Positions 17,639 to 64,000 of a DNA stretch of 64,000 nucleotides are shown piece by piece. The DNA is taken from positions 16,390,709-16,454,708 of the forward strand of contig OX453282.1 of assembly GCA_949710005.1 (NCBI GenBank), in the 5' to 3' direction. The position numbers were made by a program, and so were the translations under genes. The notes under the pieces are model-generated. The model did not search any database. It worked only from the letters and a program-made list of their open reading frames with translations, and had not been told where the DNA came from. The stretch's first letter is position 1, and every line of letters starts with the position of its first letter. The stretch is from Ricordea florida. Its lineage: Eukaryota > Cnidaria > Anthozoa > Corallimorpharia > Ricordeidae.

Positions 17639-17674
17639 ATGATTGTATCGTGGGTCATTCCCTGCTCGTTAATA

Positions 17675-20688: not shown

Positions 20689-20702
20689 CGTAGAGGCCCG
20701 CC

Positions 20703-21770: not shown

Positions 21771-22189
21771 CATTGTAGGTGGTTCAGTATTTGGAATGGT
21801 AGGAAATGGGCACTGACAAAAGTGTTGTGGCTCTATGGGTGGTGGATTGGAAAGCTTAGCAGCGTGACGAAAAACTAGCAGGAATAAACGTGGTGAAAAC
21901 GGAGGGAGGGAGAAGAAGACGATTAAACAAATAGATAACTTAAGGTGCTTGGTGGTAAGAAATATAAACAAACTACAAAACTGGAGGGCTTGTAGTTAAG
22001 ACGACGAGGGACAGCGAGTGACTAATTAGGCAGGTGTTACTTTAACGAGTACTCAATAACATGCTCCAATATCAATGGCACAGAAATGAATTTCTTTTAA
22101 CAAAAAATAGACCTAAGTTAAGCGAAAAGATTGCGATAACTAGGGAAGTGTTAAAAGGTCCTACCATTCACAAATTGCATGGCTAAGCA

Positions 22190-29857: not shown

Positions 29858-29873
29858 ATAAACAAACAAAGGG

Positions 29874-31208
29874 ATGTTTCAAATTGTATTTCAATCATTG
29901 ACTATCAACATGTTGGTGCATGGGGATTTCTACTTGATTCTTTCAAGTAGCGTTATAAGCGATCGTTACTTGGACAACAAACCACATCACTACAAAGCAG
30001 AATTACCTCAAGAAGTTGTATTACAAGGAGAATGGAAAGTTGGATTGACCGAAATTGTGTTTTCCAAAACATGGTATCAACCCAGAAAGATATCGTTGAG
30101 TGAAAATGATATGAGTTGTCAATTCACTACTTGAGAAATCCTTTTGTCACGAAAGAACTTTCACCTGAACCATATCTTGGCTACTGCAGTGTGTTTGAGC
30201 ACGTGATGGATGCCATGGTTAGCGATTTAGCCGAGATTCAAATCGAATCCATTTATACTCCGGCAACAAGAATGGTCCGATGGAATATTCCAGCGGATCG
30301 AACCCTTAGATTACGATAACCCATGACCAGAGTACTGGGATTTGTTGCTTTGAGACATCCCGACTCTTCAGATTTGTCACAAGCACAAGATTATACGGTG
30401 GTATCAAGAACCAAACGGATAGATTCAAGATACCTGAAGGGGAAAATTGGTTTGAGCTCACTAATGATGATGATGAAACGATAGGAGTGAATCTTCGCCA
30501 CTTTATTGAAGCGAGTGATAATGATGTGGACTTCTGTGTTAACAACACCTGGACACAAAATTGGTTGTCAGATCTTATTGATGTGGATGATTACTATTCT
30601 CATCGTTTTCGTATTATATTAAGGCAACTGGCCAACACTTATTTCTTCATTGGTATCACCATGAAATACGAGCAAGAATAATTTCGTTTTGATCTTCAAC
30701 CAGGAGCCACATTCATGATCTCGTTACCGTTTGCACGCATACTTGGATTTGTTGATAATAATGATATTATGACACCTTACAGGGATGGACGATTTCGGAT
30801 TGATTCTTCTCTTCCCTAATTAAGGTTTGTTTGTATGCCTCAAGAAGAAGCCTAGACGTTTTACATCGATCCACCCGACGGGTCAAGGAAATACATACCC
30901 GTTGCTTATCGACCAGTGGAGTCCTTTTTTGTCGAATCCAATCTTGTCACTGAACCGTGGTTTGACGGTGGCAAAAAATCACGAGTGTTGCAATGGATCA
31001 CTCCTAACGAAAATCTTCAAGAAAGAGAACAGGAACACAAAGTATTTCGAACAATCATTACCACAAGATTTATCAACAACGTTTACATGAGATAGAAATT
31101 ATTTTGAAGACTGATACAGATAAAGAAGTTCCATTCTATGCAGGAACGGTGACAGTAAAACTTCACTTCAAAACCAAGGCTCATGTTACACCGGATTCCT
31201 CAACATGA
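29874..31208 (+). pseudogene. Penton-like minor capsid paralogue 1
   Basis: ATG at 29874, 16 nt after integrase. The N-terminus has the family signature: FYLILSSSVISDRYLDNKP, then GEWKVGLTEIVFSKTWY. The C-terminus is IEIILKTDTDKEVPFYAGTVTVKLHF, just before the stop at 31206. The long middle (about 30116-30800) has several frames and two stops (30317, 30679), and is longer than in paralogues 2 and 3. In Polintons and adintoviruses this family is read as the single jelly-roll penton. The stop overlaps the next ATG (ATGA at 31205-31208). Confidence 0.75.
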
Positions 31209-32210
31209 CTGAGATCTCTCCGTCGGATCTCTATCTCTATTTACCGAGCAATGCAAGCACCGATACGTATACTGACAATGATCCAACCGGTACGTTTCAC
31301 CGTAACCCTACTGAATACGCTTGAATTGTACGGTGAGTGGAAAGTGGCACTAGCTGGTATTGTCTACCCTCATTCGTGGGTCAACGGTGTGGTACCAACA
31401 CCCACTGATGGCGCAAGCAAAATCCAATCCAGTCATATAGGAAAAGTCCTTGCCTTACTTAGCGTGGACCGTCGACCTGATAAATACAACGATAAAACCA
31501 AGGATTACAAAGGTTGGGTAGCAGTCTACTTGGCCGAAGGTAACTACCAAACAGTGAGAGATGTTATGGAACGGATCGACCGTGCGTTACGAAAAGAATT
31601 TGGAAACGATGTGGTCAACATAGAATGGCAAATTAAAGAAGTCGATAATCACCCTGAAATCAATGTGAAGGCCATTTCCGCACTGGCCATCAATAGGTTT
31701 CTGTACAACCCTCTCGATCTCATCAATGAAATAGGTCCTGTTGGTTTGATAGAAGACGTGTTTGGTGCAATTGGTTGAGATTTTCTAAATGATGCGTATG
31801 GTTATGCCATGTTCGGTTTGGGATGATGGTTTTTGATGATATTCCTTCTCAGCAAACTTATGTGAATTACCGACTTGCAAATAAATTGGATGACACTATT
31901 CATTGGTTTGTCGGTGTACAAGATGGAAGTGGTGGTCTCAGTTTTCAAACCATGTACATTTATTCAGATAAAGTGGAATCACAAGTGGTGGGTGATGTAC
32001 GTGCCAATGTTCTTCGTGTTATTGCTCCACGAGGACAACCGAACGAAATTTGTTCATGAAAATTTTGCCAATCTCTTTTACAACCGTGTACGACTAAGTC
32101 GTTCTAACACCATCGAAGTCCTTTTAAGAGGAGACACAGGAGGACCAATTTCATTTAAGGGAGGTGTTGTTACAATCACGTTACATTTTCGAAAAAAGAA
32201 GAATGAATGA
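31205..32210 (+). pseudogene. Penton-like minor capsid paralogue 2
   Basis: ATG at 31205 overlaps the stop of paralogue 1. The start reads DLYLYLPSNASTDTYTDND; a 1-nt shift near 31285 leads to GEWKVALAGIVYPHSW. The C-terminal half has FQTMYIYSDKVESQVVGDVRANVLRVIAPRG and, after another shift near 32045, NTIEVLLRGDTGGPISFKGGVVTITLHF. Stops at 31776 and about 31823 interrupt the middle. The tail GDTG...VTLHF is shared with paralogues 1 and 3, which shows tandem duplication. Confidence 0.8.
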
Positions 32211-34186
32211 CGAGGATTTTTACTTGTTTCTTCCGAGTAATGCAAACTGACATTTACCCTGACAACAATGCGTCCGGTTTTCAAATTGCGTTACCCAGTA
32301 TCAATGAACTTCATGGAGATGAATGGCATGTGTCATTGGCCGGTATTGTTTATCCGCATACGTGGATGACTTTTTCCCCGCATTATACACCGGAGAGTCT
32401 GTTCTTTGCCAGAATTGGTCGTGTGAGAAGACCCAATAGATTTCAGGATGATAGATTAGATGAGCTCTGGGTTCCTCTTCACATTCAAAGCTATGCAAAG
32501 AGCATTGAGATGGACGTTGGGAAAACCTTTGGCAGATCAAGGATTCAAATTCACATTCGAAGATAATCATGTATCAAGTACCATACGGAGAGCCTCGGTA
32601 CTGGTTATAAATCCCTGGATCGTTAATAGGTTGGAGATTTCAGAAACTTATCCTGACCACCCTTTTGGAAGACGTCATTCTCCCCAAAGTGGATTCGACA
32701 CAACCAAAGATAGCAGTGCTTTCCGATGTTTGGGTGTGAAGGAATATCATGAGGATTTTCCTGACGGTACCGACATCTATTGGTTGGTAACCACTCTCGA
32801 TAAACCAGTTCATTTGTTTCTGACCTCGATTTCTTTTCAAACAATATACATTTATTCAGACGTGGTGGCTTCCCAAGTGGTTGGAGATGTACGTGCCAAT
32901 ATCTTGCGGGCAGTGGCTCCCAGAGGTAGTCTGGGAGAAATTGTTCACGAGTACTTTTTCAATCTCTTCTACCATGATTTACGTTTAAAATCCTTCAATA
33001 CCATTGAAATCCTTATACAAGAATTTACATAAATGATCTTCCTAATGTAATTCAAATGGCTGAAGTAATGCTTTTTGCAGACGACACAAGTATATTTTAT
33101 TTTCATAACGACCCAAATACTGTTGCCTCTCTCATGAATCAGGAGCTTGTTAAGGTCGATTTATGGATGACAGCAAATAAGCTCTCTGTCAATATAAAGA
33201 CAATATAAGGAAATGTAAAGAAAACGAATTATATAACGGTATTCCTTTGGCAAGGAAGAGAGTGGTTAAGTTTTTAGGAACAAATTTAGATGAATATTTA
33301 ACTTGGAAACATCATATCAACCATATATATAGTTTCAAAATCAATTGGAATTATTCATAGATCTAGAAATTTATTATCATCTTTAACAAAACTTTCACTG
33401 TATTATAGTCTTGTATATCCTTATCTCACCTACTGGACGATTGTCTGGTCATCTACATATGTTACTAACTTAAATAGAATCTACCTGTTGCAAAATAGAG
33501 CCGTTCGAGCAATTACAAACTCAGAGTTCCACGCTCATTCAGCATCGTTATTCAAGCAATTAAATATCCTAGATATCCTTAAAATAAATTCTTTTCATGT
33601 AGCAAAATTTATGTTTCATTATCGTCATAATCTTCTTCCAATAGTTTTACAAAAAATTTTTGCAACAGATAGCCAGGTTCATTCCTACCAAACTAGATCG
33701 GCTCAAGATTTTCGAACTCACTCACGTAGAACTAATATAAAAAAATTTGCCATTTTGTACCAAGACCCTAAAATATGGAATTCTCTCCCGTCAAATGTCC
33801 TTTCTTTGTCAAGTTTCAATACATTTAATTCCCGACTTTCTAGCTTTCTTATAAATACTTAGTGTTAATCTGTTGTTTTCCTCCTACCTCTGTCTTTAAA
33901 ATACCGTTTTTCCTAGCCATTTTATTCTATTTATTTATTTAATTAACTTTTTAGAGGGGGCCCTTATCTAAAAGCGTTATGGTTTCTTGGGATCTCCTCA
34001 TCACTATATGTAAATAGTTAGGCAAATAGTATATGATACATTTGTAATATTTATAATATAGTAGTAAATAAAATCTATCTATCTATCTGTCTATCTATAA
34101 CAGGTGACACAGGCCAAGAAATACCATTGGTAGAGTCCACTGTTCAGGTAACGTTACACTTCAAGAGAAGCCGAATACCGCATTAA
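32203..34186 (+). pseudogene. Penton-like minor capsid paralogue 3, split by a retroelement
   Basis: ATG at 32203 overlaps the end of paralogue 2 by 8 nt. Family signatures: DFYLFLPSNAN (then a stop), DIYPDNNASGFQIALP, DEWHVSLAGIVYPHTW, FQTIYIYSDVVASQVVGDVRANILRAVAPRG and FNTIEILI. At 33017 a 1.08-kb non-LTR element interrupts it. The tail GDTGQEIPLVESTVQVTLHFKRS resumes at 34097 and ends with TAA at 34184. Excising the insert restores the alignment with paralogue 2 exactly, which dates the gene before the insertion. Confidence 0.85.
33018..34096 (+). mobile_element. 5'-truncated non-LTR retrotransposon (Jockey/CR1 group) nested in paralogue 3
   Basis: The insert begins inside the reverse transcriptase (INDLPNVIQ...LFADDTSIFYF, the catalytic FADD box) and continues through the RT thumb to FNTFNSRLSSFLINT near 33862. 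It then has a 3' untranslated region ending in (ATCT)n. A poly-repeat tail and 5' truncation are typical of target-primed reverse transcription. Two or more frameshifts are present near 33210-33330. The element is itself dead. Confidence 0.88.
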
Positions 34187-34822
34187 GTGAATCTTCCACC
34201 TTACGTTATTCCCAAGCAAGGAGGATCGATCACTGTATTCAGAGGTGCGGCTGTACCTCACATTGTCCAACAACAGCGAGGAGGGTTCGGTTTAGGAGCT
34301 TTACTCCGTAGCGTTGGTCGGACTGTTCTTAGAAAGGCCACACCCCTTGCCAAGAAAGCAGCCAGAAAAGCAATCAAACATGCAACCAAAAAAGCACTAG
34401 AAACGGGAGCAGCTGTTTTCAAAGATGTGTCAGCGGAAAAAGTGTCAAGAGGGCTACAAAACGAAGAAGTCAGCAAATGCTGTCAGCCGGCAAGCAAGAA
34501 ATGTTGACCAAAGCAATATCTGCCTTGAAACCGAAAACAGCACAAAGCAAAAGAAGAAAAAGGGTTGCAACATCCACAAGAACGGCTGTGGGAAAAAAAG
34601 AGACGGAGATCTCCGTCTCTTTTTTTCCCACAGCCGTTCTTGTGAGTCATGCAGAGACGGAAAGTCATACAAACAGGAGGAAGACGTGCTAAAAGAAAAC
34701 AAAGAATAAAAGGAACAGCTCAAGCGAAACGGATTATGCGCAAATTACGAATGATGCGTAAATTACAAAAGACACGACCTCGAAGAAGCGACATTTTCGG
34801 ATTAATTGGTTTCCATCTGTGA
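34187..34822 (+). pseudogene. Adenovirus pX/pVI-like core or cement protein
   Basis: It begins at a GTG directly after the stop of paralogue 3, perhaps an altered ATG. The first 80 residues hold GGSITVFRGAAVPHIVQQQRGGFGLGALLRSVGRTVLRKATPLAKKAARKA split by Gly-rich and basic-amphipathic parts. The C-terminus in other frames is extremely Lys/Arg-rich and ends PRRSDIFG near the stop at 34820. In adenoviruses and adintoviruses such proteins condense DNA or disrupt membranes. A frameshift near 34440 and a 70-bp perfect palindrome at 34575-34644 break the middle. Its stop overlaps the major capsid start (GTGA). Confidence 0.7.
34575..34644. repeat. Perfect 70-bp palindrome
   Basis: Two 35-base arms are exact complements with no spacer. 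The centre is GGAGA|TCTCC between 34609 and 34610. It interrupts the basic C-terminal half of the core-like gene and is not part of any coding motif. Each arm contains GAACGGCTGTGGG followed by a run of seven A. Confidence 0.95.
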
Positions 34823-36170
34823 AAACTCCTCATTTAAGACTGGGAAACGACGAGGACAGCATCGTTATGAGTTTACAGCAAACTCCTAAACACTATTCCT
34901 CGGGGCATGGTGGAAATTCTACTTTGGAATTATTTCATCTACCACCCACTGATACATCTGTACTAAGTGCTCGCTGGCAACCGTATCATCCAGATTCAAG
35001 AATCCAGCTTGGTAGTCCCGTTGAATTCAACATTGAGACAACACCCGACTACATTGACTTGTCTAAGTGTTACATTGAGTTCAAGGTCAAAGCCACCAAA
35101 GCCATTGGCGCTGATCTTACTGACAAGAAATGAATCCTAGTCAACAATTTCATGCACAGTATCATCAAGCAGATGTCCATCAAGCTCAACAACACTCTTG
35201 TCACTCAGCAAAATGACACGTATGCCTACAAAGCCTACACTGAAAATTTGTTGAGTTACCCGAGCGACACTGCTGAATCCTACATGGCGTGTGTGTTGTT
35301 GTACAAAGATGAAGCAGGAAGTCTTAATATAACAGAAGCAACAGCGGGTCAACCTGGTGCCAATATTACAAATCTGGTAACAAGACAGCTCTTCATTGAT
35401 GCAAGCAATACTTTTCAAATGCAAGGTACCCCTGCCCATGCTCTGTTCCTGGTGACTAGTTCCTGGTGGGTAATGTGGACATCGACATTCGCATTGACAT
35501 CAATTCTGATACCGTTTGTCTCATGTCGACTGCTGGAACTGAAAGATTGCAAATCATAGACTGTGAATTCATGGTGCGTTATGTAAAAATCAGTGATTCT
35601 GTGCGTTTACAACATCTGCCTGCCCTGTACTCTTTGGAAATAGGAGATGTGCAAGCGTACAATATTGCTCAAGGACAAGCCATTTTCCAGAGAAATGATT
35701 TATTTTTGGGAAAAATACCCAGACGCATTGTAGTTGGATTGGTGCGAAACGATGCCTACGTGGGTAACAAGGATCGCAACCCTTTGATTTTGAGTTGTTT
35801 GGATTGAAATCATTGAAGCTGCTAGTCAATAGAGAAGAATATCCAACTCCTGCCATTGAGTTGGATGACAACCGTGATGTGAATGGTTACAATTCACTGC
35901 TGTTAGGAAGTGGAACCATTCACCGAGGACCTGGGTTGCAAATAAGTAGAAATGAATGGATGGATGGTTATGCCCTGTTCATGTGGGACTTAACTTCAGA
36001 CGGATGCGGTGCTGCCTATCACATGCATCCAGAGTACAGAGGGCAAGTCACCATAAAAGACGTGTTCTCGGCACCGACAAGCCACAGTGCTCACGTTGAC
36101 CGTCTACGGAGAGTATGTGGACATCATGAAAATCGATGCGAACAAGAACGTGACTTACGATCTGGCCTGA
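34819..36170 (+). pseudogene. Major capsid protein (Polinton double jelly-roll), inactivated
   Basis: Start GTG (perhaps a former ATG), overlapping the preceding stop by 4 nt; a downstream in-frame ATG is at 34867. Signatures: TDTSVLSARWQPYHPDS, DYIDLSKCYIEFKVKAT, NNTLVTQQNDTYAYKAYTENLLSY and ISRNEWMDGYALFMWDLTSDG. The C-terminus is YGEYVDIMKIDANKNVTYDLA with a stop at 36168. Breaks: TGA at 35131, frameshifts near 35460, 35795 and 36070. About 450 codons when merged, normal for the family. It forms the hexons of the predicted icosahedral capsid. Confidence 0.9.
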
Positions 36171-36199
36171 AAAAACTGAATAAAAAAAAAACTTTTATC

Positions 36200-36754
36200 A
36201 TGTTATACACAAACAAGTTGAAGATGTTAAGTATGCGCGATCCGTTAATCGCTTGCACATTTTTGGGTGTTTGCTAGCAGTCGATTATTGAAACGAGTAC
36301 GCACCTATCCCGCCTCTCTTATTGCCAATACAGATCCTGCCGGTAAACCAGGAGAGCATTGGACTGCCACGTATTTTCCAGACAAGATCAAAAATGAATT
36401 TTTCGATAGCTAGGATTTCCACCCTCTTTTTACACGAATAATTTCACCAAGTATCTAACCAAAGGAAAAAAAAGAACGTTGCGCAACAAGAAGACACCAC
36501 AATTCCTCAATTCTTCGGGGTGTGGATATTATTGTCTTTATTATCTGCATTTTCGATCACGAGGCAAGGGCTTGAAAGCCATCGAACGATGTTTCACCCC
36601 GAACAATAAGCAAGGCAACGATAAACATGTGGAAGCCTTTATCAAGCACCACTTGTCACGACGTCGTCGTCAAACCATGCGTTACATCGGCCATGATTGT
36701 AATCAATGCAATGTATCAAGAAAACAATGCTGTAGTAACCGTTTTAGAAAATAA
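36200..36754 (+). pseudogene. Adenain-like cysteine protease (Polinton PRO)
   Basis: ATG at 36200. The start is MRDPLIACTFLGV; after a frameshift near 36270 the His box follows (NTDPAGKPGEHWTATYF). A further shift at 36411 leads to LGFPPSFY and the Cys box LNSSGCGYYCLYYLHF. Catalytic His, the Pro-rich turn and catalytic Cys are all visible in the order found in adenovirus protease and Ulp1. It would process capsid precursors. The C-terminus is basic. Two frameshifts make it inactive. Confidence 0.88.
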
Positions 36755-46725: not shown

Positions 46726-46972
46726 TGTAACTGTGACTGGCGGCACATGAGAGCCGTGGCGATGAACAGAACAACAAAACGTTTAACCATACACAAGGCT
46801 GAAAAAACTTACAAGTATCATCATAAACATTCATTAGAAATCCGTAGAACTAGAAAGAAAACCTAAAGCAAACGACTAACAAAACACTTGGGAAACTTGA
46901 AGAAAGCCTTAGTGAAACTCCAGGTAATTTCACGGTGGCCTCGTGCCTGCCAATGCCCAGGCCCCTTGCGCA
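46726..46972 (-). repeat. BEL/Pao 3' LTR
   Basis: 247 bp. On the minus strand it begins TGCGCAAGG and ends CAGTTACA. Matches 53447-53689. A purine-rich GGAGAG lies just inside, as expected of a polypurine tract. Confidence 0.85.
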
Positions 46973-47049
46973 TGCATGGCTCTCCAAAATGTAAACCTTG
47001 CCTTACATTTTAACAACAACTATAACTATCTCGATAACAGTCCTAAAAC

Positions 47050-53446: not shown

Positions 53447-53689
53447 TGTAGCTGTGACAAGCGGCACATGAAGTGGCGATGAACATAACAACAAAACGTT
53501 TAATCATACACGAGGCTGAAACAACTCACAAGTATCATCATAAACATCCGTTAGAAATCCGTAGTACGAGAAAGAAAAACTAAAACAAACGACTTACAAA
53601 AAACTTGGGAAACTTGAAGAAAGCCTTGGTGAAACTTCAGGTAATTTCACAGTGGCCTCGTGCCCGCCAATGCCGAGGCCCCGTGCGCA
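53447..53689 (-). repeat. BEL/Pao 5' LTR
   Basis: 243 bp, beginning TGCGCA and ending AGCTACA on the minus strand. Partner of 46726-46972. Confidence 0.85.
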
Positions 53690-53729
53690 TGTTCCTAATA
53701 AGCAAGGGGGTAAGCCCGCTGGTCAGGAT

Positions 53730-54929: not shown

Positions 54930-56078
54930 CTAACGAGAGGATCGCCGACAGAGAATAAACCAAGCAGCGAGAGATCGTCGCCAAGCGCATTTCAGCGTCG
55001 AAACATCAGCACAACGACAAGCGCGACTCGAAGCCGAGGGGGAGAGAACACGGCAGCGACGACAACAACAGGCATCGGAGCAAAGACAACAACTGCTTGC
55101 TCAAAGAAGGCAAAAGAGACAGCAAGAATCAGCGGAAGAAAGGAGCAGGAGACTGGATTACCACAGGCAATACAACAAAGGTATGTTTGAAGCTGAATGT
55201 GTTAGTGATAGACAACGAACACTTGCTTTAGCTAGACAAAACGTGAATGAACGATTGCATAGCGAAACTAACGAACAGCGACAACGGTGACTACAGATAC
55301 TGAGACAAAATTCAGCAGAGCGACTTAGGACAGAAACTGAATACGAACGATTTCAACGAGTGGAGAGATTGCCGGGAAATATTTCGAACAGACTACAAAC
55401 AGAATCGGAAGACGAACGCCAGAACAGGTTAAGGATTTTACGCGAAAATAGTGTTAACAGAATACAGACAGAATCAGAGGAGGAACGGCAAAGCAGATTA
55501 AGGATTGTACGCGAAAATACTGCTAACATAATACAGACAAAATCAGAGGCGGAACGGCGGCAAAACAGATTAAGGATTTTACGCGAAAATACTGCTAACA
55601 GAATACAGACAGAATCAGAACACGAACGGCAAAACAGATTAAGGATTTTACGCGAAAATACTGCTAACAGAATACAGACAGAATCAGAAGACGAACGGCA
55701 AAACAGATTAAGATTTTACGTGAAAATACTGCCAGGATAAGGGGAACAGAAACAGACCAAGAAGGACTTGAAAGATTACAGTCACTTAGTACTGATAGCA
55801 GCGCTACACGTAGGTCGGAAGTACAGTTAAACAGACAACATGAGGAACATACTAGAGAGGAATATCTTACACATGGATGGATGAATTCAGAACTGCGACT
55901 GCACCAGCAGCAATGGGTTCAAAGTAGCATGGCAGCTTTCCACAACAACATCAACAGCCTGGAACACATACAGTGTGTAACATGTAAAGAAACATGGAGT
56001 AGTAGGAAATGGAGGATTCTGGCTCAATGGGTGTGGTCACTTGAATTTTTTGCCTCAAAATGGTCTTATGTAAATTAG
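54930..56078 (+). pseudogene. Helitron-type N-terminal remnant with 23-24-residue tandem repeats
   Basis: From about 54950 the plus strand encodes Arg/Gln/Glu-rich sequence, then five copies of a 69-72-bp unit (55370-55725) giving RENTANRIQTESE-D/H-ERQNRLRIL. One unit is three bases longer. After TAA at 55738 a shifted frame (55881-56078) has QWVQSSMAAFHNNINSLEHIQCVTCKETW, a His/Cys pattern I recall just after such ERQ repeats in animal Helitron helicase proteins. Stops at about 54932, 55288 and 55738. The helicase itself is absent, so this is a truncated end. Confidence 0.5.
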
Positions 56079-56191
56079 TGTGTAAAAGTTGTATCTTGTG
56101 GGGGGTGGGGTGAGTAATATTTTTGTTTTGTTGCTGGTATCAAAAATTGAAAGTTGGGTTTGGGTGAGGTAGGGATTGGTATATCTTGGTC

Positions 56192-56946
56192 ATGTCTAGT
56201 AAAAGGAAGAAGTGTATTCATGTTAAAACCAAATACTATTGCAGAGACTGCAAAGGTGGTGCTTTCTGTAAGCATGGTAGGATTAAATATTCATGTAAGG
56301 AGTGTGGAGGTTCTAGAATTTGTAAACATGGAAGGATTAAGTATTATTGTAAAGAATGTGGAGGTTCTAGAATTTGTAAACATGGAAGGCAAAAGAATTA
56401 TTGTAAAGAATGCGGAGGTTCTGGAATTTGTGAACATGGAAGGAGTAAGTATGTTTGTAAAGAATGTGGAGGTTCTGGAATTTGTGAACACGGAAGAAAC
56501 AAGTACCAATGTAAATATTGTAAGTTAAATGCCAGTTGTGATAATTATTTAAATAAGAATCCTAAAAGTACTAAAATTTTCAGAGAAGAAAAGTATGTAG
56601 GCATTTGTGAAAATGTAAGTAATAATTATGTCTCTAAAGAATTTCTAGGTTCTAGAATTCGTAAAAATGGAAGAAATAAGTACACGTTTAGGGATTGTGG
56701 AGGCTATATAATTTGTGAAAATGGAATGTATAAGTACATATAGAAATATTCTAAGTTAAATGATAGTTATGAGAATAATTTGTTTAATTATTTAAAGAAG
56801 AATACTAGAAGATCCAAAATTTGTAAACATGGTAAATCTAAAAGTAAAAAATGTAAAGATTGTGATGGTTATATTTGTTGTAAACATGATAGAAATATGA
56901 TATGTTATAACTGCATGTTAATTTGGACTATGGAAAGTAATAAGTA
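56192..56946 (+). pseudogene. CxHGR/CKxCGG zinc-repeat protein
   Basis: ATG at 56192. Five good and three worn repeats of about 20 residues follow the pattern CKECGGSRICKHGRIKYY, giving Cys-x2-Cys...Cys-x-His sets, one zinc each by inference. The DNA repeats at 60 bp are nearly identical at 56290-56500 and worn after 56520. A TAG at 56741 interrupts, but the same frame continues with KICKHGKSKSKKCKDCDGY to a stop at 56944. Proteins of this repeat type are frequent in giant DNA viruses and scattered in eukaryotes. Its role is unknown. It converges on the minus-strand array that ends at 56999. Confidence 0.7.
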
Positions 56947-56998
56947 GTTACATAATACATTTGTAACGCGCTTCACGTTACAAAAGTTCACTAGATGC

Positions 56999-57367
56999 TT
57001 ATACATAGACTACTATAACCTCCCTCTTGTACTTCCTAGCCATCTTGATAGTTGACTTAGTACCTATTGAGTAAACACATGAAGGTAAGGCTAATACATG
57101 TGTTACACACTCCATAATAGCCCTATTACGAATTGGTCCAGCTGCTTTGCCATAATAGTCCCATTGAGGGGCAAACTCCTTGAAGGGTATCCCATTTTCA
57201 ATTGCAAACTCTTCAGCCATAGTGTCAACTCCTCTTGCACCTCCAGATACGATACATTCAATATCTGAGAGATTCAACTTCCATTTCTTGAGAGCCTTCC
57301 TTATTTGCTCTTTCAAGAAGTCACTGTCAAAGAAGTTCCTACTACCAACGATAGCTAGTGATGCCAT
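56999..57367 (-). CDS. SLOG-domain protein (YspA-like, cpYpsA-related)
   Basis: ATG at 57367; 122 codons, intact. VGSRNFFDSDFL at the N-terminus, then CIVSGGARGVDTMAEEFA, FKEFAPQWDYYGKAAGPIRNRAIM and SIGTKSTIKMARK, the full SLOG Rossmann-type pattern: the SGGARGVD loop binds a nucleotide-like ligand and GP-RN-x-M is conserved. SLOG proteins are seen in phages and in prokaryotic signalling or defence systems, and they sense or process nucleotide derivatives. It is the last gene of the minus-strand array. A SLOG gene in an animal genome within a viral-like array suggests transfer with the element. Confidence 0.85.
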   Translation of the reverse strand: MASLAIVGSRNFFDSDFLKEQIRKALKKWKLNLSDIECIVSGGARGVDTMAEEFAIENGIPFKEFAPQWDYYGKAAGPIRNRAIMECVTHVLALPSCVYSIGTKSTIKMARKYKREVIVVYV

Positions 57368-57410
57368 GGTTTACAAATGGGCATATCCATGGATTGGCTG
57401 TTTCAATTTT

Positions 57411-57731
57411 TCATCTGAAAATAATCCAAGCTATAGCTGCAGCTGCAATGGTTAATACTATTAGAATATCCTCATGATTGGTACTGGTTTTTTCTGATGG
57501 GGACTCTTTGATTATAGGTTGAGAATCCATCTTTGGTGGTGGTGGTTTGTATGTAACAGCTGCATGTGGTAACTTAACTTTTGAAGAACCTAGGTAATGG
57601 CTTATCCCTACAGTTTTAGTCTCCAGGTTAACGTTTGTGTTAACACCAAATTTCATCTCATCAGTACCCTTCATAAGGTTGTTATTATATCCAACTACAC
57701 TCTCTGTGTTTATGATCATATTGCTGGGCAT
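57411..57731 (-). CDS. Array gene 11: C-terminally anchored small membrane protein
   Basis: ATG at 57731; 106 codons, intact. A polar, Asn/Lys-rich body (residues 1-80) with PPPPK precedes one C-terminal hydrophobic segment (ILIVLTIAAAAIAWIIF, about 88-105). A tail anchor facing the virion or cytosol is the likely topology. 43 nt separate it from the SLOG gene. No known domain. Could be an internal virion membrane or capsid-attachment protein, by context only. Confidence 0.7.
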   Translation of the reverse strand: MPSNMIINTESVVGYNNNLMKGTDEMKFGVNTNVNLETKTVGISHYLGSSKVKLPHAAVTYKPPPPKMDSQPIIKESPSEKTSTNHEDILIVLTIAAAAIAWIIFR

Positions 57732-57791
57732 TAACCATATTCCAGGTGCAATGGCTAAATCTAGTCTTAATTTAGCTTCTTGAGTGGCTAG

Positions 57792-58958
57792 TTAATATCT
57801 TTGAACTGAGCTTGAGATATCGTTCTCTATAACACTACTTTCAAATAAAGCCAAGAATTCTTGTTGCGTTTCAATTGCTCCACCACTACTACCTACAATA
57901 GAATTTCGGGTGTTCACTTGAGATCCAAGGATACAGTAAACGAAGGCTTCAGCAGATCGATTCAATCTACCAAGTCCGGCTTTGGTGAGTCCATAACCAC
58001 TAGTTGGAATGAACCAAGCATACTTGCAATCGGCAAAGTCATCATTACGAATGAATGAGATGAGATTACCTTTTTCCTTTTTACCACCATCATCGGAGAA
58101 TTTACCACCATCACCAGGCCATTGGTTTGCATCTTCATCATAATTCCTAATAATGTGAACATTCTGAAATCCCCCACCACGCCCATGATAGCCAGCTCCA
58201 TAGTCAAGGAAAATATCCCCCAAGCCCCCATTTCTACCACCCTTCCATCTGAAATCAGATTGGTTGGAAATACCGAATTCAGCGCATAATCTTTGGTAAG
58301 CAACCTTACTGTAAGGGTTGTTGTTTATAACAAATGGTTGCTCATCGGGTAATGGTACACTCAATTCGTATAGTATTCGCCTTATGGTGAAGTACACGTG
58401 AAACTTCATGAAGCCGGCCACGACTTTGGGATAGTTCAAACTTTTAAAGGGGCTGATACCACATCCAGAGGTTGAACACCACACTGCAAAATTAAGCTGT
58501 TGAGGCCAATAATTCATGTTAGGAGCTTTCAACCAATTTCGTCCTTGTTTTCCAAACTTGAAGGTTACAACTTGGGATGTAAATACATTACGCATCTTAG
58601 CAGTGAACTTCTTGGTGTTTGACACGTAAATGTCCAATGAGGTTAGCATGGATGTGGTATCACTGGTGAAGTCATCAAAGTCAATGGCTGGTATTGGGTA
58701 TGAATGATTTGTCATGGTTAGACTAACTGGGAATGAGCTCACTGTCTTACCATTCAAACCTAAATCAGTCCAAAGTAGTATCTTCAAATTAGGTGGAAGG
58801 CTATCAGTCCATGTCTTGCTAGTAGGGTCATCATAAGACATGACTGTTAACCCATTACGTGTCCATTTCATATACCCACCATAACTATCATAAACAAATG
58901 TGAACTGGTTCAAGTCAGCCTTTGGATATCTAGTTTTGAAACCATTGAGTAAGCCCAT
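57792..58958 (-). CDS. Array gene 10: 388-aa candidate capsid protein
   Basis: ATG at 58958; the largest and intact frame of the array. Beta-strand-rich with no long helices or membrane segment. Conspicuous parts: LNFAVWCSTSGCGISPF (residues about 155-172), FMKFHVYFTIRRILYELSVPLP, and a Gly-rich loop region at about 245-305. I recall similar unnamed proteins in many cnidarian and other animal gene models, always without function. Size, strand-rich sequence and position with a penton-like gene support a capsid role, but no family profile is recognised. An attachment or core protein is possible. Confidence 0.6.
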   Translation of the reverse strand: MGLLNGFKTRYPKADLNQFTFVYDSYGGYMKWTRNGLTVMSYDDPTSKTWTDSLPPNLKILLWTDLGLNGKTVSSFPVSLTMTNHSYPIPAIDFDDFTSDTTSMLTSLDIYVSNTKKFTAKMRNVFTSQVVTFKFGKQGRNWLKAPNMNYWPQQLNFAVWCSTSGCGISPFKSLNYPKVVAGFMKFHVYFTIRRILYELSVPLPDEQPFVINNNPYSKVAYQRLCAEFGISNQSDFRWKGGRNGGLGDIFLDYGAGYHGRGGGFQNVHIIRNYDEDANQWPGDGGKFSDDGGKKEKGNLISFIRNDDFADCKYAWFIPTSGYGLTKAGLGRLNRSAEAFVYCILGSQVNTRNSIVGSSGGAIETQQEFLALFESSVIENDISSSVQRY

Positions 58959-59002
58959 CTTCTATCCAGTGTTTGGGTAGAAGGTTTTAAGCTTTTAAGT
59001 CA

Positions 59003-59278
59003 TTAATTCTCAGGTTCCAACCCTAAATCATTAAGAATCTTATTTTTGTAATATTTTGGAATTCCATTCAGTGGTACACTACCATCATCTTGGATTTTAA
59101 TTTCGAACCTAATTTTGGGTGATTTATTATCACCATATGTGTAATTAGATTCACACCATTTAAAAAGTGTGTTATCTTTTATTCTATCACCACAGTTTCT
59201 TCTAAAAAGTCTAAACTTTTCAAAGTTAGCTTTTGTATATCTCCTAATAAACTTAACTTCTTTCTCAGATAAGTCCAT
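59003..59278 (-). CDS. Array gene 9: small charged protein, unknown
   Basis: ATG at 59278; 91 codons, intact. Highly charged (EKEVKFIRRYTKANFEKFRLFRRNCGDRIKDN), one Cys near residue 29 and one near 41, no hydrophobic segment. 44 nt from gene 10 and about 59 nt from gene 8. No domain recognised. A nucleic-acid-binding role would fit the basic first half, as inference. Confidence 0.65.
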   Translation of the reverse strand: MDLSEKEVKFIRRYTKANFEKFRLFRRNCGDRIKDNTLFKWCESNYTYGDNKSPKIRFEIKIQDDGSVPLNGIPKYYKNKILNDLGLEPEN

Positions 59279-59337
59279 TTTATACCACTAGTTTATTAAA
59301 TCTTTAAGCTAGTATTTAAAATTTTCATAAGTTATGG

Positions 59338-59961
59338 TTATGACTCTCCTTTTAGTTCTTTGAGTATCTCTTTTCGTACCTTCTGTCTCAATAATATAGG
59401 GTCTTCTCCATTCAAAATTTTTTGAGATTTAGCTCTTATATCAGCCTTGAGCTTTTCAAAGTTCTTGAGTTCCTCTATTATCAATGAGAACTGATCGTCA
59501 GAGATCTTATTGTCACGAAGCGCTTTTGAAACCAAGTCTTCAATGGTGTTTATTTTTGATTTAGCCAGTGTAATTGTATTTTGATGCTTGACAGCTTTCT
59601 TGGATAGGTTCTTGGATATTTGTTGGCATGCTATGGATGCGCATACAAATACACCACTTACTTCCCCCAAGGGCACAGATGCTATGATTCCCACCCCACT
59701 AATAGATGTACCCAATCCACCAGCCGCTAAAACGCAAGATAATATACCACAGGTTGAGCTTGCATTCATTAGTGCACCCGTGGATCGGTTGTATTTTTTG
59801 AGTACTGTCTCACAGTGGCTTAATTCAGACTTAAGCTTATTCAAAGCATCACAACATTGTTGAAGTCTGAATGATGGCCCATCAGTGGGAGTTGGAGGTG
59901 TATCCGAGTTGGGAGGTGCAGTTGCCTGTAAGTTGGGATAGATTCGATTATACTCATCCAT
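59338..59961 (-). CDS. Array gene 8: membrane-active protein with coiled coils
   Basis: ATG at 59961; 207 codons, intact. A Pro-rich start and a helical Cys-containing part are followed by a 50-residue Gly/Ala/Val-rich hydrophobic region (about 68-118: ILSCVLAAGGLGTSISGVGIIASVPLGEVSGVFV), probably two membrane passes. Then a charged coiled coil (KHQNTITLAKSKINTIEDLVSKALRDN...) follows. It recalls pore-forming or membrane-lytic capsid proteins in layout. Similar unnamed proteins recur in cnidarian gene models as I remember them. Function unproven. Confidence 0.65.
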   Translation of the reverse strand: MDEYNRIYPNLQATAPPNSDTPPTPTDGPSFRLQQCCDALNKLKSELSHCETVLKKYNRSTGALMNASSTCGILSCVLAAGGLGTSISGVGIIASVPLGEVSGVFVCASIACQQISKNLSKKAVKHQNTITLAKSKINTIEDLVSKALRDNKISDDQFSLIIEELKNFEKLKADIRAKSQKILNGEDPILLRQKVRKEILKELKGES

Positions 59962-59985
59962 ATTTGGTACAACTATAACTTCCTT

Positions 59986-60627
59986 TTAAAATGTTATCTG
60001 AAACTGAAGCTGACAGTGATTGGAGAACCCTTCAGATCCAACTTTTTTCCACTCACTGTCGAGTATGCTTAAATCGAAGTGATTTATGGGACTCTTTGAT
60101 TTCTGTGCCGGGATGACTGGATAATCCTGTGAGAGTATGTTAGCAAGTAGGTATGAGGGTGAAACCTTCACAGGTATTACTGATTGAACTTTATTCGTAT
60201 AGGATGACAAGTTATCCACTAGACTGCAAGTAAGTCTCATGGGCCCCTTGATCTGGAGATTTATGGGGTATAACTTGCCAGGATTTATGATTTCAGGCAC
60301 ACCAAGCCCAATTTGTAGCCCTCTCGTGAGTTTAATGTTGAAGCTCTTGTTGGAGTACAGATAGTCAACAGTATCAGTCTCAATGATTGATAGTTTGGCA
60401 TTATCCGTATCATTGAGAAATATCTCGTGGATACTTCGTAGTGAGTATGTGCCGGGTTGGATTATTATGAGGGGCCGGTTGTCCTCCTTGAGCAAGCCCT
60501 GGCGATCCTTGAAATTCACTAATCTTTTGGGTATCCTACAATCCAGGAGTTGTATCTCCCGAACTTTGTCCAGGGGAGGATCCAAGTACACTCTAGTTTC
60601 AGATTCATACATGGTAACGCTTAACAT
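59986..60627 (-). CDS. Array gene 7: penton-like minor capsid protein
   Basis: ATG at 60627; 213 codons, intact. The N-terminal pattern REIQLLDCRIPKRLVNFKDRQG, then IIIQPGTYSLRSIHEIFLND, and the C-terminal HFDLSILDSEWKKVGSEG...CQLQFQITF follow the layout of the Polinton penton family (strand-LxxxxIPxxxxN, PGxYxLxxI, final jelly-roll strand). It shares no long identity with paralogues 1-3 in this window, so it belongs to a different element. A single jelly-roll vertex protein is the best reading. Confidence 0.65.
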   Translation of the reverse strand: MLSVTMYESETRVYLDPPLDKVREIQLLDCRIPKRLVNFKDRQGLLKEDNRPLIIIQPGTYSLRSIHEIFLNDTDNAKLSIIETDTVDYLYSNKSFNIKLTRGLQIGLGVPEIINPGKLYPINLQIKGPMRLTCSLVDNLSSYTNKVQSVIPVKVSPSYLLANILSQDYPVIPAQKSKSPINHFDLSILDSEWKKVGSEGFSNHCQLQFQITF

Positions 60628-60633
60628 TTTGGA

Positions 60634-60813
60634 TTACTCTTTGGCCCCCTTTGAATTTCTATACTCAGCCTCTGAGAGGAATCGAGTCTTGGTTATCCCG
60701 CAGCTGTCACATTTGCACTTCATCATGGGTCTACCCTTGGATGTTTTGGTGAGGGTTTCACTTCCAGGCACGCATTCAGTTTGTTTTCTCTCTTTGACGC
60801 AATAGCTCTTCAT
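60634..60813 (-). CDS. Array gene 6: 59-aa zinc-ribbon protein (DUF5679-like)
   Basis: ATG at 60813. MKSYCVKERKQTEC...GRPMMKCKCDSCGITKTRFL has paired Cys (C-x8-C, then CKCDSCG) with an ITKTRFL strand. This is the layout of the short DUF5679-type ribbons that are frequent in adenoviruses' distant relatives, virophages and Polinton-like viruses. Six nt separate its stop from the start of gene 7, so the genes are packed tightly. It is too short for most gene callers. Zinc binding is inferred from spacing. Confidence 0.7.
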   Translation of the reverse strand: MKSYCVKERKQTECVPGSETLTKTSKGRPMMKCKCDSCGITKTRFLSEAEYRNSKGAKE

Positions 60814-60819
60814 TTATAT

Positions 60820-61437
60820 TCACTTATGCTTTTTCTTTAATTCCTCTATGAAGTAAAGTACAATTGCCACTATTAACAGCCAAGCGTTCTTACCCAAGAA
60901 TGAAATGACCTCACCAGCAGTCTTGAATAAGAAGCTTACAATGGCACCCACCATACCAGGTAATAACTCGCCTAGTTTCTTACCAATTGTCTTTAGTCCA
61001 TCACCAACCCCTTTACCCAATTTCGAGAGTCCTTTGGATAGGTTGGAGACTATAACACCAATTACCACTCCAACTGCACTCATAACGGCAAAGACTGTGA
61101 ATCCATATTTCTTGAATATAGCCTTCACCCGGTCTCGCAATGACATTTGTTCCTGGATTTGTTCATTCTCCTCCTCCAGGCTACCTATCTCTCCCTCCTC
61201 TTCACCAATTTCTCTTTTGAGGGTCTCTATTCGACTTAATTCCTCTGGTGTTTTCAATGCCTTGTTTTGATGGAATTCTAGCTCCTTCTTCTTTTCAGTG
61301 AGTTTACTCTTTTTCTTGGTTATTTCAGTATCATTAGCTTCCACAATCTCTTCCGCTTTTGGACCTAAGGCATCCTTTAGTGTTTGGGATGGCTCACCAT
61401 CTAATTCACCGTTTTTAATAAAGTGAACTCATGTCCA
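60820..61437 (-). CDS. Array gene 5: two-pass membrane protein with coiled coil
   Basis: Open from about 61437 to 60820 without a good ATG near its start; a candidate ATG (MSLRDRVKAIF) is at about 61146. An N-terminal Glu/Lys coiled coil is followed by one hydrophobic segment (VFAVMSAVGVVIGVIV), then a Gly/Lys amphipathic stretch (LSKGLSKLGKGVGDGLKTIGKKLG), and a second segment (AWLLIVAIVLYFI). It overlaps gene 4 in another frame, and its upstream part (FIKNGELDGEP) looks like a continuation of gene 4. So gene 4-5 may be one protein read through a shift, or broken by one indel. The amphipathic part resembles membrane-disrupting capsid proteins. Confidence 0.65.
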
Positions 61438-61754
61438 CCTTTCCTGTCCAATCTAACAAATATCTGTTCTATGCCACCAAATAACCTTCTAACACCAGCT
61501 ATGATCTTGGAGAACTTGGCATAAGGAAAAAAGCGTTTAACTTCAGCCTCTGCATAATCTCGGTCGCCTTCCCTTTGTATCAATGGACTAGTTTCATCTG
61601 TATTATCCATGAATGATGTCTCTTCTATTTCAGGGTCAACACGAGTGGTAGATGTAATTGTGGTTGGTGGGGTACCATAGGTTGTAGTGTTCCCATCATT
61701 ATCACCAGCTTCATTTAGTTCAGTTTGGTCTAGATCAGTATAACCAGTTGCCAT
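61401..61754 (-). CDS. Array gene 4: acidic protein, perhaps the N-terminal part of gene 5
   Basis: ATG at 61754; 117 codons to a stop at 61401. Ser/Thr/Asp-rich first 60 residues, then a basic amphipathic part (VKRFFPYAKFSKIIAGVRRLFGGIEQIFVRLDRKGGHEF). At GAGTTCACTTTATTAAAAACGG the other frame continues directly into gene 5. No exact slippery heptamer is seen, so either a single-base indel or an unusual shift signal must be present. Confidence 0.6.
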   Translation of the reverse strand: MATGYTDLDQTELNEAGDNDGNTTTYGTPPTTITSTTRVDPEIEETSFMDNTDETSPLIQREGDRDYAEAEVKRFFPYAKFSKIIAGVRRLFGGIEQIFVRLDRKGGHEFTLLKTVN

Positions 61755-61787
61755 ATTTGGTGTAAATATGGGAACTTCTAAATCATT

Positions 61788-62192
61788 TCAAAACCACTTG
61801 CTAGTAATGTATCCTAAGGCTAACATCCCACCAGAAACATAAGCCATTTCTCCATTTTTTTGATCTGAATTAGGTCTATAAAAGTCGGATAACTTGGGCG
61901 GATTACCCATTTCATTATACAATTTGAGAGCTTCGTCTGTCTTTGATATATTCTCAGAGGCCTGGTTAGCATCGCCCTTCCTCCTATTCATAAAGTCAAT
62001 ATAAGCCATTCGCTTCTTTTCATATTGAGCATAATCTTTTTGATACTTCTCCATTGCTTTGTCATGCTTCTCCCTTTCGAGTTGGAGATCAGCGGAAGAT
62101 GAACCACTAAGGGCCTTTGCTATATAATTACCACCAATGAAGGCTGTTGCATTGAGCACTGCTCCTCCAAGCATGATTGCTATACTCGCCAT
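61788..62192 (-). CDS. Array gene 3: membrane protein with central coiled coil
   Basis: ATG at 62192, overlapping the stop of gene 2 by one base (TGATG). 134 codons, intact. An N-terminal hydrophobic segment (IAIMLGGAVLNATAFIGGNYI), then a charged coiled coil (REKHDKAMEKYQKDYAQYEKKRMAYIDF), FSDFY-like LSDFYRPNSDQKNGEM, and a short C-terminal hydrophobic end (YVSGGMLALGYITSKWF). Two-ended membrane contact with a soluble coil is likely. I recall near-identical layout in unnamed cnidarian proteins. Confidence 0.7.
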   Translation of the reverse strand: MASIAIMLGGAVLNATAFIGGNYIAKALSGSSSADLQLEREKHDKAMEKYQKDYAQYEKKRMAYIDFMNRRKGDANQASENISKTDEALKLYNEMGNPPKLSDFYRPNSDQKNGEMAYVSGGMLALGYITSKWF

Positions 62193-62410
62193 CAGCTACT
62201 GGGTAATATCTTCTGGTCCTCTAAGTAAGTTTTGAGATACATGCTTGCTGATAATACAGGAACCCATTTACCATGATTCATTATACTTGATGATGGATCG
62301 CCAATGAATGATTCTCTGAGAGCCTTCTTTCCAATATAACCCATAGCGGCAGCCAGCCCAATTAGCACTGCAGAGTCAGTAACTGTCTTTACGAGCTTGT
62401 TCTCAGCCAT
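62192..62410 (-). CDS. Array gene 2: small membrane protein (72 aa)
   Basis: ATG at 62410; intact. One hydrophobic segment (AVLIGLAAAMGYIGKKAL, residues about 13-30), then ESFIGDPSSSIMNHGKW and a helical end (KTYLEDQKIL). Its stop shares a base with the ATG of gene 3, so translation of the two may be coupled. No family name known to me. Confidence 0.7.
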   Translation of the reverse strand: MAENKLVKTVTDSAVLIGLAAAMGYIGKKALRESFIGDPSSSIMNHGKWVPVLSASMYLKTYLEDQKILPSS

Positions 62411-62417
62411 TTATGGA

Positions 62418-62813
62418 TTACATCCACTCATCTTTTAAATTATTTTCTTGTTTGGGTGGCTGACTTGCACTATTCTCGATGATTTTGAGTGGAGGGGGAT
62501 TGAAGGTGTGAACTGGTACATGCAAATCAGGTATTCTATCCCTATAGTTTGTGAATATGGCATAGGCAGCGAGTCCAATGGATCCAAGTGTTAACACATT
62601 CTGGAATGATAGACTTGGTAGCCAGTCATCACCACCACTTTCATCTTTTTTATTTGACTTGGCCTCCTCTTTCTCCTGCGCGCGCTTATAATAAGCCATA
62701 GCCTCATTTCTTTTGGCTTGTATCGCCTTACCAGCCTTTACTCTCTTGGGGTCTTTGGCCTTTGTTTTAACATCAGGTTCTTTAGTGATTTGCTCAGTGT
62801 TTTCTTCAGACAT
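62418..62813 (-). CDS. Array gene 1b: Lys-rich single-pass membrane protein
   Basis: ATG at 62813; 131 codons, intact. The first 75 residues are Lys/Glu-rich (KDPKRVKAGKAIQAKRNEAMAYYKRAQEKEEAK). Then WLPSLSFQNVLTLGSIGLAAYAIF gives one hydrophobic segment, followed by a Pro-rich tail. Nucleic acid on one side and membrane on the other is a possible arrangement, as inference. Seven nt separate it from gene 2. Confidence 0.7.
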   Translation of the reverse strand: MSEENTEQITKEPDVKTKAKDPKRVKAGKAIQAKRNEAMAYYKRAQEKEEAKSNKKDESGGDDWLPSLSFQNVLTLGSIGLAAYAIFTNYRDRIPDLHVPVHTFNPPPLKIIENSASQPPKQENNLKDEWM

Positions 62814-62934
62814 GTTATAAGTGAAACTATTCTAACCTTTAAGTCTCCTAGTAAGTGGCATACTAGGAAACTGAACATTTTCTATCTATTAAATTAAGTG
62901 TATTTATTCTTACGAATCTTTGGTACTGGAAGCT

Positions 62935-63411
62935 TTACTTCCTCCTCATCTTCAGCCAATAGTTCCTCAACAGTTTTATTACCGAATTAAGCTCCTCAAA
63001 ATCACAATTTCCGAATACGTCTTCTTCATCCTGTAGTGGTTCGAAATCAATTATAGGCTTATAGAGTTTAATTACCTGAACCACAAATCGTAAAGAAGCA
63101 ATCACATCACTCATACCATGTGAGCCAAAGTATACACTGTCTAATCTTAATGAGATTCGTGCGCATGATTTGGTATCAGCTTCTTTGGCGTATATGTAGT
63201 CCTCATAGGTATCATTCCTTCTCCTGCCTTTGAATACAGTATGTGATTTGAGACTACTACCTGATCCACTTGTCATGAAATTAACATACACACATAGTGG
63301 CCTTTGTTGGCCATCTTCAGATTTTGGGTATGAGTATGGCGGCTTCACCAGGTTAATTGGCATACTTTCCAAATCTTTCAGCTTATGTTTGCTTTGGCTT
63401 ATGTCAGGCAT
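62935..63411 (-). CDS. Array gene 1a: soluble protein, unknown
   Basis: ATG at 63411; 158 codons, intact. Beta-rich middle (LCVYVNFMTSGSGSSLKSHTVFKGRRRNDTYEDYIY, RISLRLDSVYFGSHGMSDVIASLRFVVQVI) with an acidic end (PLQDEEDVFGNCDFEEL) and a basic terminus. No membrane segment. About 121 nt to the next gene. It could be a capsid-associated or DNA-binding protein; no motif supports a choice. Confidence 0.6.
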   Translation of the reverse strand: MPDISQSKHKLKDLESMPINLVKPPYSYPKSEDGQQRPLCVYVNFMTSGSGSSLKSHTVFKGRRRNDTYEDYIYAKEADTKSCARISLRLDSVYFGSHGMSDVIASLRFVVQVIKLYKPIIDFEPLQDEEDVFGNCDFEELNSVIKLLRNYWLKMRRK

Positions 63412-63441
63412 TTTGTCCTTAGTATCTTCATTAGAATCGAA

Positions 63442-63831
63442 CTATTGAAGAGAAGTCCCTACTATCTCCACGAGTATATCAAATCTAGACCTAGTCTCTT
63501 GTTCCTCCTCAGTTGGCTCATTCATAGTTCCAAATGAGGTCAATGGGTAGTTCACTTGGAGTCCATTGATGTCCTCAACCTTCTTTTCTTTTCTCTTCTC
63601 GTATTTGTAACTATGAAACACACCTAATATGTTCTGCTTTGCCAGCTCGAAAGAGAGGCTCTTTTTCTCCCCATTCTCAACTACAAAGACCTGTGAAGAG
63701 GAGCACTTGTACCTCTTGTTCTTTACAGGCTTGTCTATAAGGACAGAGTCCCAATTAAAATCAGTCTCTTCAATGGGTATGAAGCGAGTTTTCAATGAGT
63801 CAGATTTGTTCACTGTATTAGATTGCGCCAT
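63442..63831 (-). CDS. First visible array gene: soluble protein, unknown
   Basis: ATG at 63831; 129 codons, intact. Starts polar (SNTVNKSDSLKTRFIPIEETDFNW), a Lys/Cys strand region (KNKRYKCSSSQVFVVENGEKKSL) and an acidic C-terminus. 30 nt to the next gene. Conserved-looking tryptophan and PxEETDF suggest a real protein. No family recognised. Sequence beyond 63832 may hold further genes of the same array. Confidence 0.6.
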   Translation of the reverse strand: MAQSNTVNKSDSLKTRFIPIEETDFNWDSVLIDKPVKNKRYKCSSSQVFVVENGEKKSLSFELAKQNILGVFHSYKYEKRKEKKVEDINGLQVNYPLTSFGTMNEPTEEEQETRSRFDILVEIVGTSLQ

Positions 63832-64000
63832 TTTGTTTGTTCTGAGTGGGTATACTGATTGCTTGTGTGGTCTTGTTCAGTTTTCAATTTTTTTCAAACC
63901 CATAAATTTTAATGAACAGTATCAACTCCAACATGCTCTGTAGTAATTGGCTCAGCAGGTTCTCTTATTTTGAAATGCTTAGCAATGTGAATAACTCCTG

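Follow-up and report, generated by a model that had tools for sequence, protein, structure and literature searches.

A compact array of virus-like genes in the genome of Ricordea florida, probably the virion-structure end of a decaying endogenous DNA virus

The stretch of Ricordea florida DNA analysed here (64,000 nt of contig OX453282.1, hereafter the window) ends in a dense block of minus-strand reading frames, which raises the question of what kind of element this block represents and in which condition it is preserved. We consider it likely that the array carries the virion-morphogenesis genes at one end of an endogenized dsDNA virus, which is of medium size and of the Bamfordvirae type, is independent of a nearby Polinton and is now decaying. 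The Bamfordvirae comprise adenoviruses, Polintons, virophages, MELD viruses and giant viruses.

Layout and setting of the array

Minus-strand ORFs starting with ATG span 0.893 of positions 56999-63831 (15 ORFs of at least 59 aa, overlapping frames counted), compared to 0.060 on average and at most 0.192 across 200 dinucleotide shuffles. The gaps between the ORFs measure 6-121 nt and a single one-base stop/start overlap occurs at 62192. In these respects the first-pass annotation, which had described a compact same-strand array, proved correct. Its statement that the surroundings are riddled with stops holds in part: no other stretch of the window is as open as the array, but the best of the 68 strand-tiles in the rest of the window, a minus-strand tile at 15001-21833, reaches 0.799. 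With both split genes counted once, the array holds about 12 genes and 29 codons of a further frame:

56999..57367, minus: SLOG-superfamily protein, YAcAr/DprA-like, 122 aa, last gene of the array (Pfam, PHROG)
57411..57791, minus: C-terminal part of a 507-545-aa protein following a putative premature stop, with hydrophobic tail (family profile, hydropathy)
57792..58958, minus: N-terminal 388 aa of the 507-545-aa protein, apparently cut by the premature stop (relatives, profile)
59003..59278, minus: 91-aa ORF, possibly related, as a stand-alone protein, to the N-terminal domain of the large protein (shuffle comparison)
59338..59961, minus: 207-aa protein with a hydrophobic segment (hydropathy 1.74)
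59986..60627, minus: penton-like minor capsid protein, 213 aa, final residues apparently out of frame (relatives, fold matches)
60634..60813, minus: 59-aa zinc ribbon, DUF5679 (Pfam, 1.9e-7)
60820..61754, minus: probable single membrane/coiled-coil protein in two ORFs of different frames (frames, hydropathy)
61788..62192, minus: 134-aa protein, hydrophobic segment N-terminal (hydropathy)
62192..62410, minus: 72-aa protein overlapping the next gene by one base (ORF list)
62418..62813, minus: 131-aa protein (ORF list)
62935..63411, minus: 158-aa ORF with an apparent frame shift close to its end (ORF list)
63442..63831, minus: 129-aa ORF without detectable relatives (protein search)
63912..63998, minus: last 29 codons of a reading frame starting outside the window (frame)

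The DNA around the array looks like animal DNA. Retrotransposons, Pao among them, were detected in the same window, as was an old Polinton near 25-40 kb on the plus strand with DNA_pol_B_2 and rve pieces.

The large protein and the penton-like protein

A search with the ORF at 57792-58958 yielded 1884 database proteins at E<=1e-3, the best of which has 513 aa and is 87% identical at 100% query coverage. Positions 50-415 of the family profile match this ORF (E 1.3e-187) and positions 417-538 match 57411..57791 (E 6.7e-50). Since the relatives run continuously through both ORFs, the reading of the 388-aa ORF (57792-58958) and the 106-aa ORF (57411-57731) as two genes was rejected; judged from the protein comparison, they form one 507-545-aa protein, which a premature stop has split in two. 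A hydrophobic tail encoded in 57411..57791 (segment mean 2.21 in the hydropathy scan) is present in most of the relatives. The family was aligned once as 12 of the 120 listed relatives together with the window piece (A1) and once as 82 of the 120, which were chosen by hand and are mostly full length (A2).

The 388-aa ORF had been put forward as a strand-rich capsid candidate, which the structure prediction does not support: the model of the relative P0037 (541 aa) is of a mixed type and rich in helices, at a low confidence (mean pLDDT 61.3), and gave no match of note in BFVD and VIA-align, a result covering the families represented in those sets. No Pfam domain is listed among the 120 best members of the family, and PDB sequence searches with both family alignments, that of the penton included, returned best E-values of 0.83 and 0.55. 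It is conceivable that this membrane-anchored protein, with an undescribed fold, is itself the main particle protein and replaces the double-jelly-roll capsid beside an ordinary penton, in which case the array would represent animal DNA viruses with a membrane, or mobile elements derived from viruses, that form a highly repeated and so far unrecognized family; we regard this as unlikely.

For the 213-aa penton-like protein (59986-60627) 56 relatives were listed, 45 of which were aligned with the window protein (A3). Pfam searches with the 46 rows connected one member to a family of unknown function (0.0024), all others giving 0.087 or worse. Fold comparison of the model against BFVD yielded ten viral matches with probabilities of 0.80-1.00. 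The first is the penton of a MELD virus (122 alignment columns, 19% identity, query TM-score 0.29), and the others include proteins of Gaeavirus, Hokovirus, Klosneuvirus and Bodo saltans virus. The top three PDB entries are the EhV-201 capsid, the mavirus penton and the PBCV-1 capsid, and the TM-scores of the fold comparisons are low. The proposed identity is thereby moderately supported and the protein is probably a penton; a single-jelly-roll penton or vertex protein, to which this comparison points, is a general feature of Bamfordvirae-type viruses. The C-terminal positions of the family profile match the window DNA in a frame different from that of the ORF, which, compared with its relatives, appears to end out of frame. 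Due to ten exactly matching contig sizes in common, compared to 0.2 expected, the penton and the large-protein families are probably linked elsewhere.

Between the 388-aa part and its nearest relative changes were found in 2 of 143 highly conserved and in 39 of 215 variable columns, a comparison which stands in for dN/dS, the relatives being proteins only, and which includes changes of the viral phase. The changes avoid conserved columns; constraint therefore acted along the lineage. The suggested current selection is nevertheless doubtful, since the array copy, as assembled, contains at least two broken genes. Twelve intact whole genes, as initially listed, are not present, the large protein being split by a stop and the penton ending out of frame. 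The best reading of these data appears to be a lineage formerly under protein-level constraint with a copy that is now decaying.

Smaller proteins and the search for hallmark genes

The predicted SLOG protein (57002-57367) was confirmed by Pfam (YAcAr, 2.6e-11; DNA_processg_A, 2.7e-10) and by PHROG 289 (1.7e-23), and the zinc ribbon by a DUF5679 match above the curated Pfam cut-off. In NCBIfam searches with P0037, the 29-residue fragment and five ORF pieces of the window, the SLOG protein had a DprA match below the cut-off; all other matches were at E 0.02 or worse, and the fragment at 63912-63998 had none. In PHROG searches, which covered 10 of the 14 ORF pieces, the SLOG protein had the only strong match, and the coiled-coil piece showed tape-measure-type and protease-type matches at E 0.0012-0.02. 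The 207-aa ORF has no Pfam family above the cut-off and a best PHROG E-value of 0.0077, and for the 129-aa ORF (63442-63831) a search of protein sequences returned five candidates, none of them at E<=1e-3.

Comparison of the 91-aa ORF with the large family (84 rows, i.e. 82 relatives and the window piece twice) placed the best row 6.5 sd over the shuffles, and 11 of the 84 rows beat all 200 shuffles; BLASTP (E 1.8 and 1.0), hhalign (probability 7) and the profile search (E 0.62) gave no comparable signal. These values suggest, and no more than suggest, that the N-terminal domain of the large protein has a relative here in a gene of its own.

Instead of the at least five membrane-associated proteins assumed before, the hydropathy scan (19-residue mean of at least 1.5) flagged 4 of 14 ORF pieces. 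The ORFs 61401-61754 and 60820-61428 lie in overlapping frames and have hydrophobic segments of 2.46 and 1.62. The part at 60820-61344, in which the first possible start is GTG, contrary to the real ATGs reported throughout, looks like an out-of-frame continuation of 61401-61754. Similarly, 62935-63411 appears to change frame close to its end. Relatives of these two loci were not seen. A cysteine-rich repeat ORF adjoins the array at 56186-56743.

Among the 14 array ORF pieces scanned, from an element that is cut by the window end at 64000, neither a packaging ATPase, pPolB, rve or protease nor a double-jelly-roll capsid was detected. The Nucleocytoviricota hallmarks (PolB, A32-type ATPase, VLTF3, DJR MCP) were likewise absent from these pieces, which represent one end of the element. 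Inverted repeats with arms of at least 60 nt were not found within 56999-64000, one element end being located outside the window. Pattern scans of IMG/VR with the 388-aa piece, the two family alignments and the SLOG, 207-aa and 202-aa ORFs revealed no relatives, as did those of GTDB genome contigs, and an IMG/VR scan with a Polinton piece also found nothing; these scans used two to six short peptide patterns, which miss distant relatives, and may omit the genome of the window itself. A paper describing the gene set was not found by title or abstract opening.

Origin of the array and comparison with known viruses

Taken as a viral virion-structure module with a probable penton, which the analysis supports, the array would function as follows. 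The penton would close the five-fold vertices of the particle, as supported by the fold comparison. The large conserved protein, apparently linked to the penton on other contigs, may be anchored by its hydrophobic tail in an internal membrane, its bulk bridging membrane and shell, and the small hydrophobic proteins may be located in the same membrane; the virus was thus perhaps membrane-containing. The genes would be read off one strand as a late block, with the zinc ribbon and the SLOG protein presumably acting as accessory, nucleic-acid or nucleotide binding proteins. Genes for replication, packaging and probably the major capsid would follow beyond base 64000, and the stop codon and frame shifts would now be costing this copy its function.

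It seems rather unlikely that the array is a piece of a large insertion of giant-virus (Nucleocytoviricota) origin and not of a medium-sized Polinton- or MELD-type virus. Among the ten best BFVD matches of the penton, the eight at ranks 2-9 are named after giant viruses or a related algal virus, which we take to be Nucleocytoviricota, two of the top three PDB entries (EhV-201, PBCV-1) fit this origin as well, and the adjoining cysteine-rich repeat ORF presumably has a giant-virus look. However, the top BFVD match is the MELD virus penton, the scanned ORFs contain no giant-virus hallmark, and 44 of the 56 listed penton relatives sit on contigs of 8-20 kb, as would fit a medium-sized multi-copy element or assembly limits.

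It is very unlikely that the array belongs to the Polinton of this window as a part that has been displaced or has diverged, although both share a neighbourhood and Polintons also carry pentons. This Polinton lies on the opposite strand with its own polymerase and integrase pieces, the profiles of the large protein and the penton find no further copy within the window, and the penton profile matched three Polinton pieces with probabilities below 1%, which is a weak test of single sequences against a shallow profile. The array was thus retained as a second element, as had been proposed. That a bacterial, phage or host-gene array has been taken for a module of a eukaryotic virus, to which the absence of introns and the phage-family match of the SLOG protein would fit, is highly improbable in view of the penton fold, the neighbouring retrotransposons, the pattern scans of IMG/VR and GTDB, the single strong PHROG match and the lack of any match to P0037 in 50,697 phage records.

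The endogenized medium-sized virus favoured here resembles MELD viruses in its penton, of which theirs is the best structural match. A polymerase, integrase or hexon was not seen in the array, and a counterpart of its large protein was not found. These midsize eukaryotic linear DNA viruses are described as having mixed genomes, with virion proteins resembling those of poxviruses and megaviruses (PMC11071296). Polintons/Mavericks and adintoviruses are likewise medium-sized endogenous animal DNA viruses with a penton-type minor capsid protein, but their pPolB, rve, protease and packaging ATPase were not found in the scanned ORFs. Bellas et al. place cnidarian MCP genes outside the main metazoan Maverick-Polinton cluster (PMC10120064). 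The penton model of the array resembles minor capsid or penton proteins of giant viruses, and the penton of the virophage mavirus (PDB 6g41) is 4% identical to that of the array, in which no virophage MCP, ATPase or protease was seen.

A family of 1884 members without a Pfam domain among its 120 best and with a probable linkage to a penton of giant-virus/MELD type suggests widespread endogenous DNA viruses, probably of animals, and the IMG/VR pattern scans suggest a group of which virus catalogues hold little. Intact relatives, should they have genes for replication and packaging, would help to relate Polintons and MELD viruses to giant viruses, and the spread of such elements through animal genomes could be addressed.

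Density and integrity of the array

The minus strand between positions 56999 and 63831 carries a dense row of open reading frames (ORFs), the array, which is read as a fragment of an integrated virus. Its ORFs are spaced by 6-121 nt with a single one-base overlap, and those of at least 59 aa that start with ATG cover 89.3% of it. Since coverage was 6.0% on average and 19.2% at maximum in 200 shuffles, the array is far from chance, which bears out the compact same-strand arrangement proposed in the first-pass annotation. The accompanying claim that it stands out from its surroundings by its openness was only partly upheld: the openness is far above chance but not unique, as the most open of the 68 other strand-tiles of the same window reached a coverage of 79.9%.

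The array had furthermore been regarded as intact, whereas this copy as assembled contains lesions. The large protein, belonging to a family of 507-545 aa, is split by a premature stop into a 388-aa part (57792-58958) and a C-terminal 126-aa part (57411-57791), and the genes at 60820-61754 and 62935-63411 look frame-shifted as judged from their sequences. The changes separating the proteins from their nearest relatives affect 2 of 143 highly conserved and 39 of 215 variable columns in the 388-aa part, 2 of 48 and 30 of 73 in the 126-aa part, and 4 of 74 and 18 of 122 in the penton-like protein (59986-60627); intact relatives used as controls showed a similar distribution. Because the changes avoid highly conserved columns, the alignments indicate that constraint at the protein level operated along the lineage, and that the lesions are either recent or assembly errors.

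Probable linkage of the penton and large-protein genes

The association of both genes in other copies was assessed by exact matches in contig size between 56 penton relatives and the best 120 of 1884 large-protein relatives. Twelve of the penton relatives share the exact contig size of a large-protein relative from this set (10 distinct sizes), compared to 0.21 coincidences on average and at most three in a control with randomly offset contig sizes. As this sharing is far above the control, the two genes probably occur together repeatedly in other copies. Conservation of the whole row beyond these two genes is unsupported, since the 129-aa ORF at the distal end of the array (63442-63831) had no relatives in a protein database search (E<=1e-3).

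Two pairs of different penton relatives were each found on a single contig size (P0121 and P0145 on 14103, P0167 and P0169 on 19129), which may point to a second penton gene in each element or to neighbouring copies.

Besides small proteins the array encodes a SLOG protein and a DUF5679 zinc ribbon, and a clear hydrophobic segment was detected in 4 of its 14 ORF pieces. The 91-aa ORF (59003-59278) appears weakly similar to the large protein's N-terminal domain: the best of 84 rows scored 6.5 sd above shuffles and 11 of the 84 scored above all 200 shuffles, but other methods speak against the similarity, with an hhalign probability of 7 and BLASTP E values of 1.8 and 1.0.

Neighbouring elements

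Further features of the window
2856-2928 and 3221-3292, minus strand: two tRNA-like genes, one called tRNA-Thr
25007-36274, plus strand: Polinton carrying an integrase piece and disrupted PolB reading frames
46756-46974 and 53473-53691: direct repeat of 219 nt (91% identity) on both sides of a Pao-type retrotransposon region
54934-55767, plus strand: arginine/glutamate-rich repeats followed by a cysteine motif; STPR match of 1.1e-4, under its cut-off
56186-56743, followed by another ORF reaching 56947, plus strand: cysteine-rich repeat ORF in which C-x2-C-x5-C-x2-H units recur roughly every 18 aa
56960-56984: palindrome (arms of 9 bp) separating the convergent cysteine-rich ORF and SLOG gene

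The Polinton near 25-40 kb comprises DNA_pol_B_2 and rve pieces. At 31.2-33.0 kb it contains two neighbouring regions of similar appearance that may be a duplicated penton gene; no Pfam match was obtained for the single piece scanned. Three Polinton pieces, compared as single sequences with a shallow profile of the array penton, showed no meaningful resemblance to it, and profiles of two array families, large protein and penton, detected no second copy in the window.

The window also holds a Pao retrotransposon peptidase, a LINE-type endonuclease and reverse transcriptase, and a gag-type protease. These retrotransposon genes make an animal the likely host, and it may plausibly be a cnidarian. 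The 219-nt repeats are possibly the LTR ends of the Pao-type retrotransposon. The arrangement at 54934-55767 may resemble part of Helitron proteins, and both tRNA-like genes are located inside a tandem repeat with a spacing of 364-365 nt.

The cysteine-rich ORF, which is convergent with the SLOG gene, may be part of the element of the array. It had no Pfam match; its repeats may resemble those of algal viruses. The palindrome is possibly a transcript-end hairpin, given the predicted minus-strand fold of 56950-57000 (-13.6 kcal/mol, z -2.3, 5 of 200 shuffles equally good).

Proposed particle and relation to known viruses

The analysis supports the penton, the lesions, the SLOG and zinc-ribbon proteins and a tail-bearing large protein that is probably linked to the penton. 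The element may have formed icosahedral particles that enclosed a membrane; the large protein would be anchored in this membrane by its tail and bridge membrane and shell. The array genes would be co-transcribed as a late block, and the genes for replication, packaging and capsid that are missing here would be located beyond position 64000.

No account resembling the gene set of the array was found in the literature searched. Scans with short-peptide patterns, which distant relatives would escape, revealed neither large-protein nor penton relatives in IMG/VR or GTDB. Within the reach of the respective searches the large protein had no relatives in phage records, Pfam or PDB, and the penton none by sequence in PDB. 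The kind of element itself is already known, namely endogenous medium-sized DNA viruses of the Bamfordvirae type.
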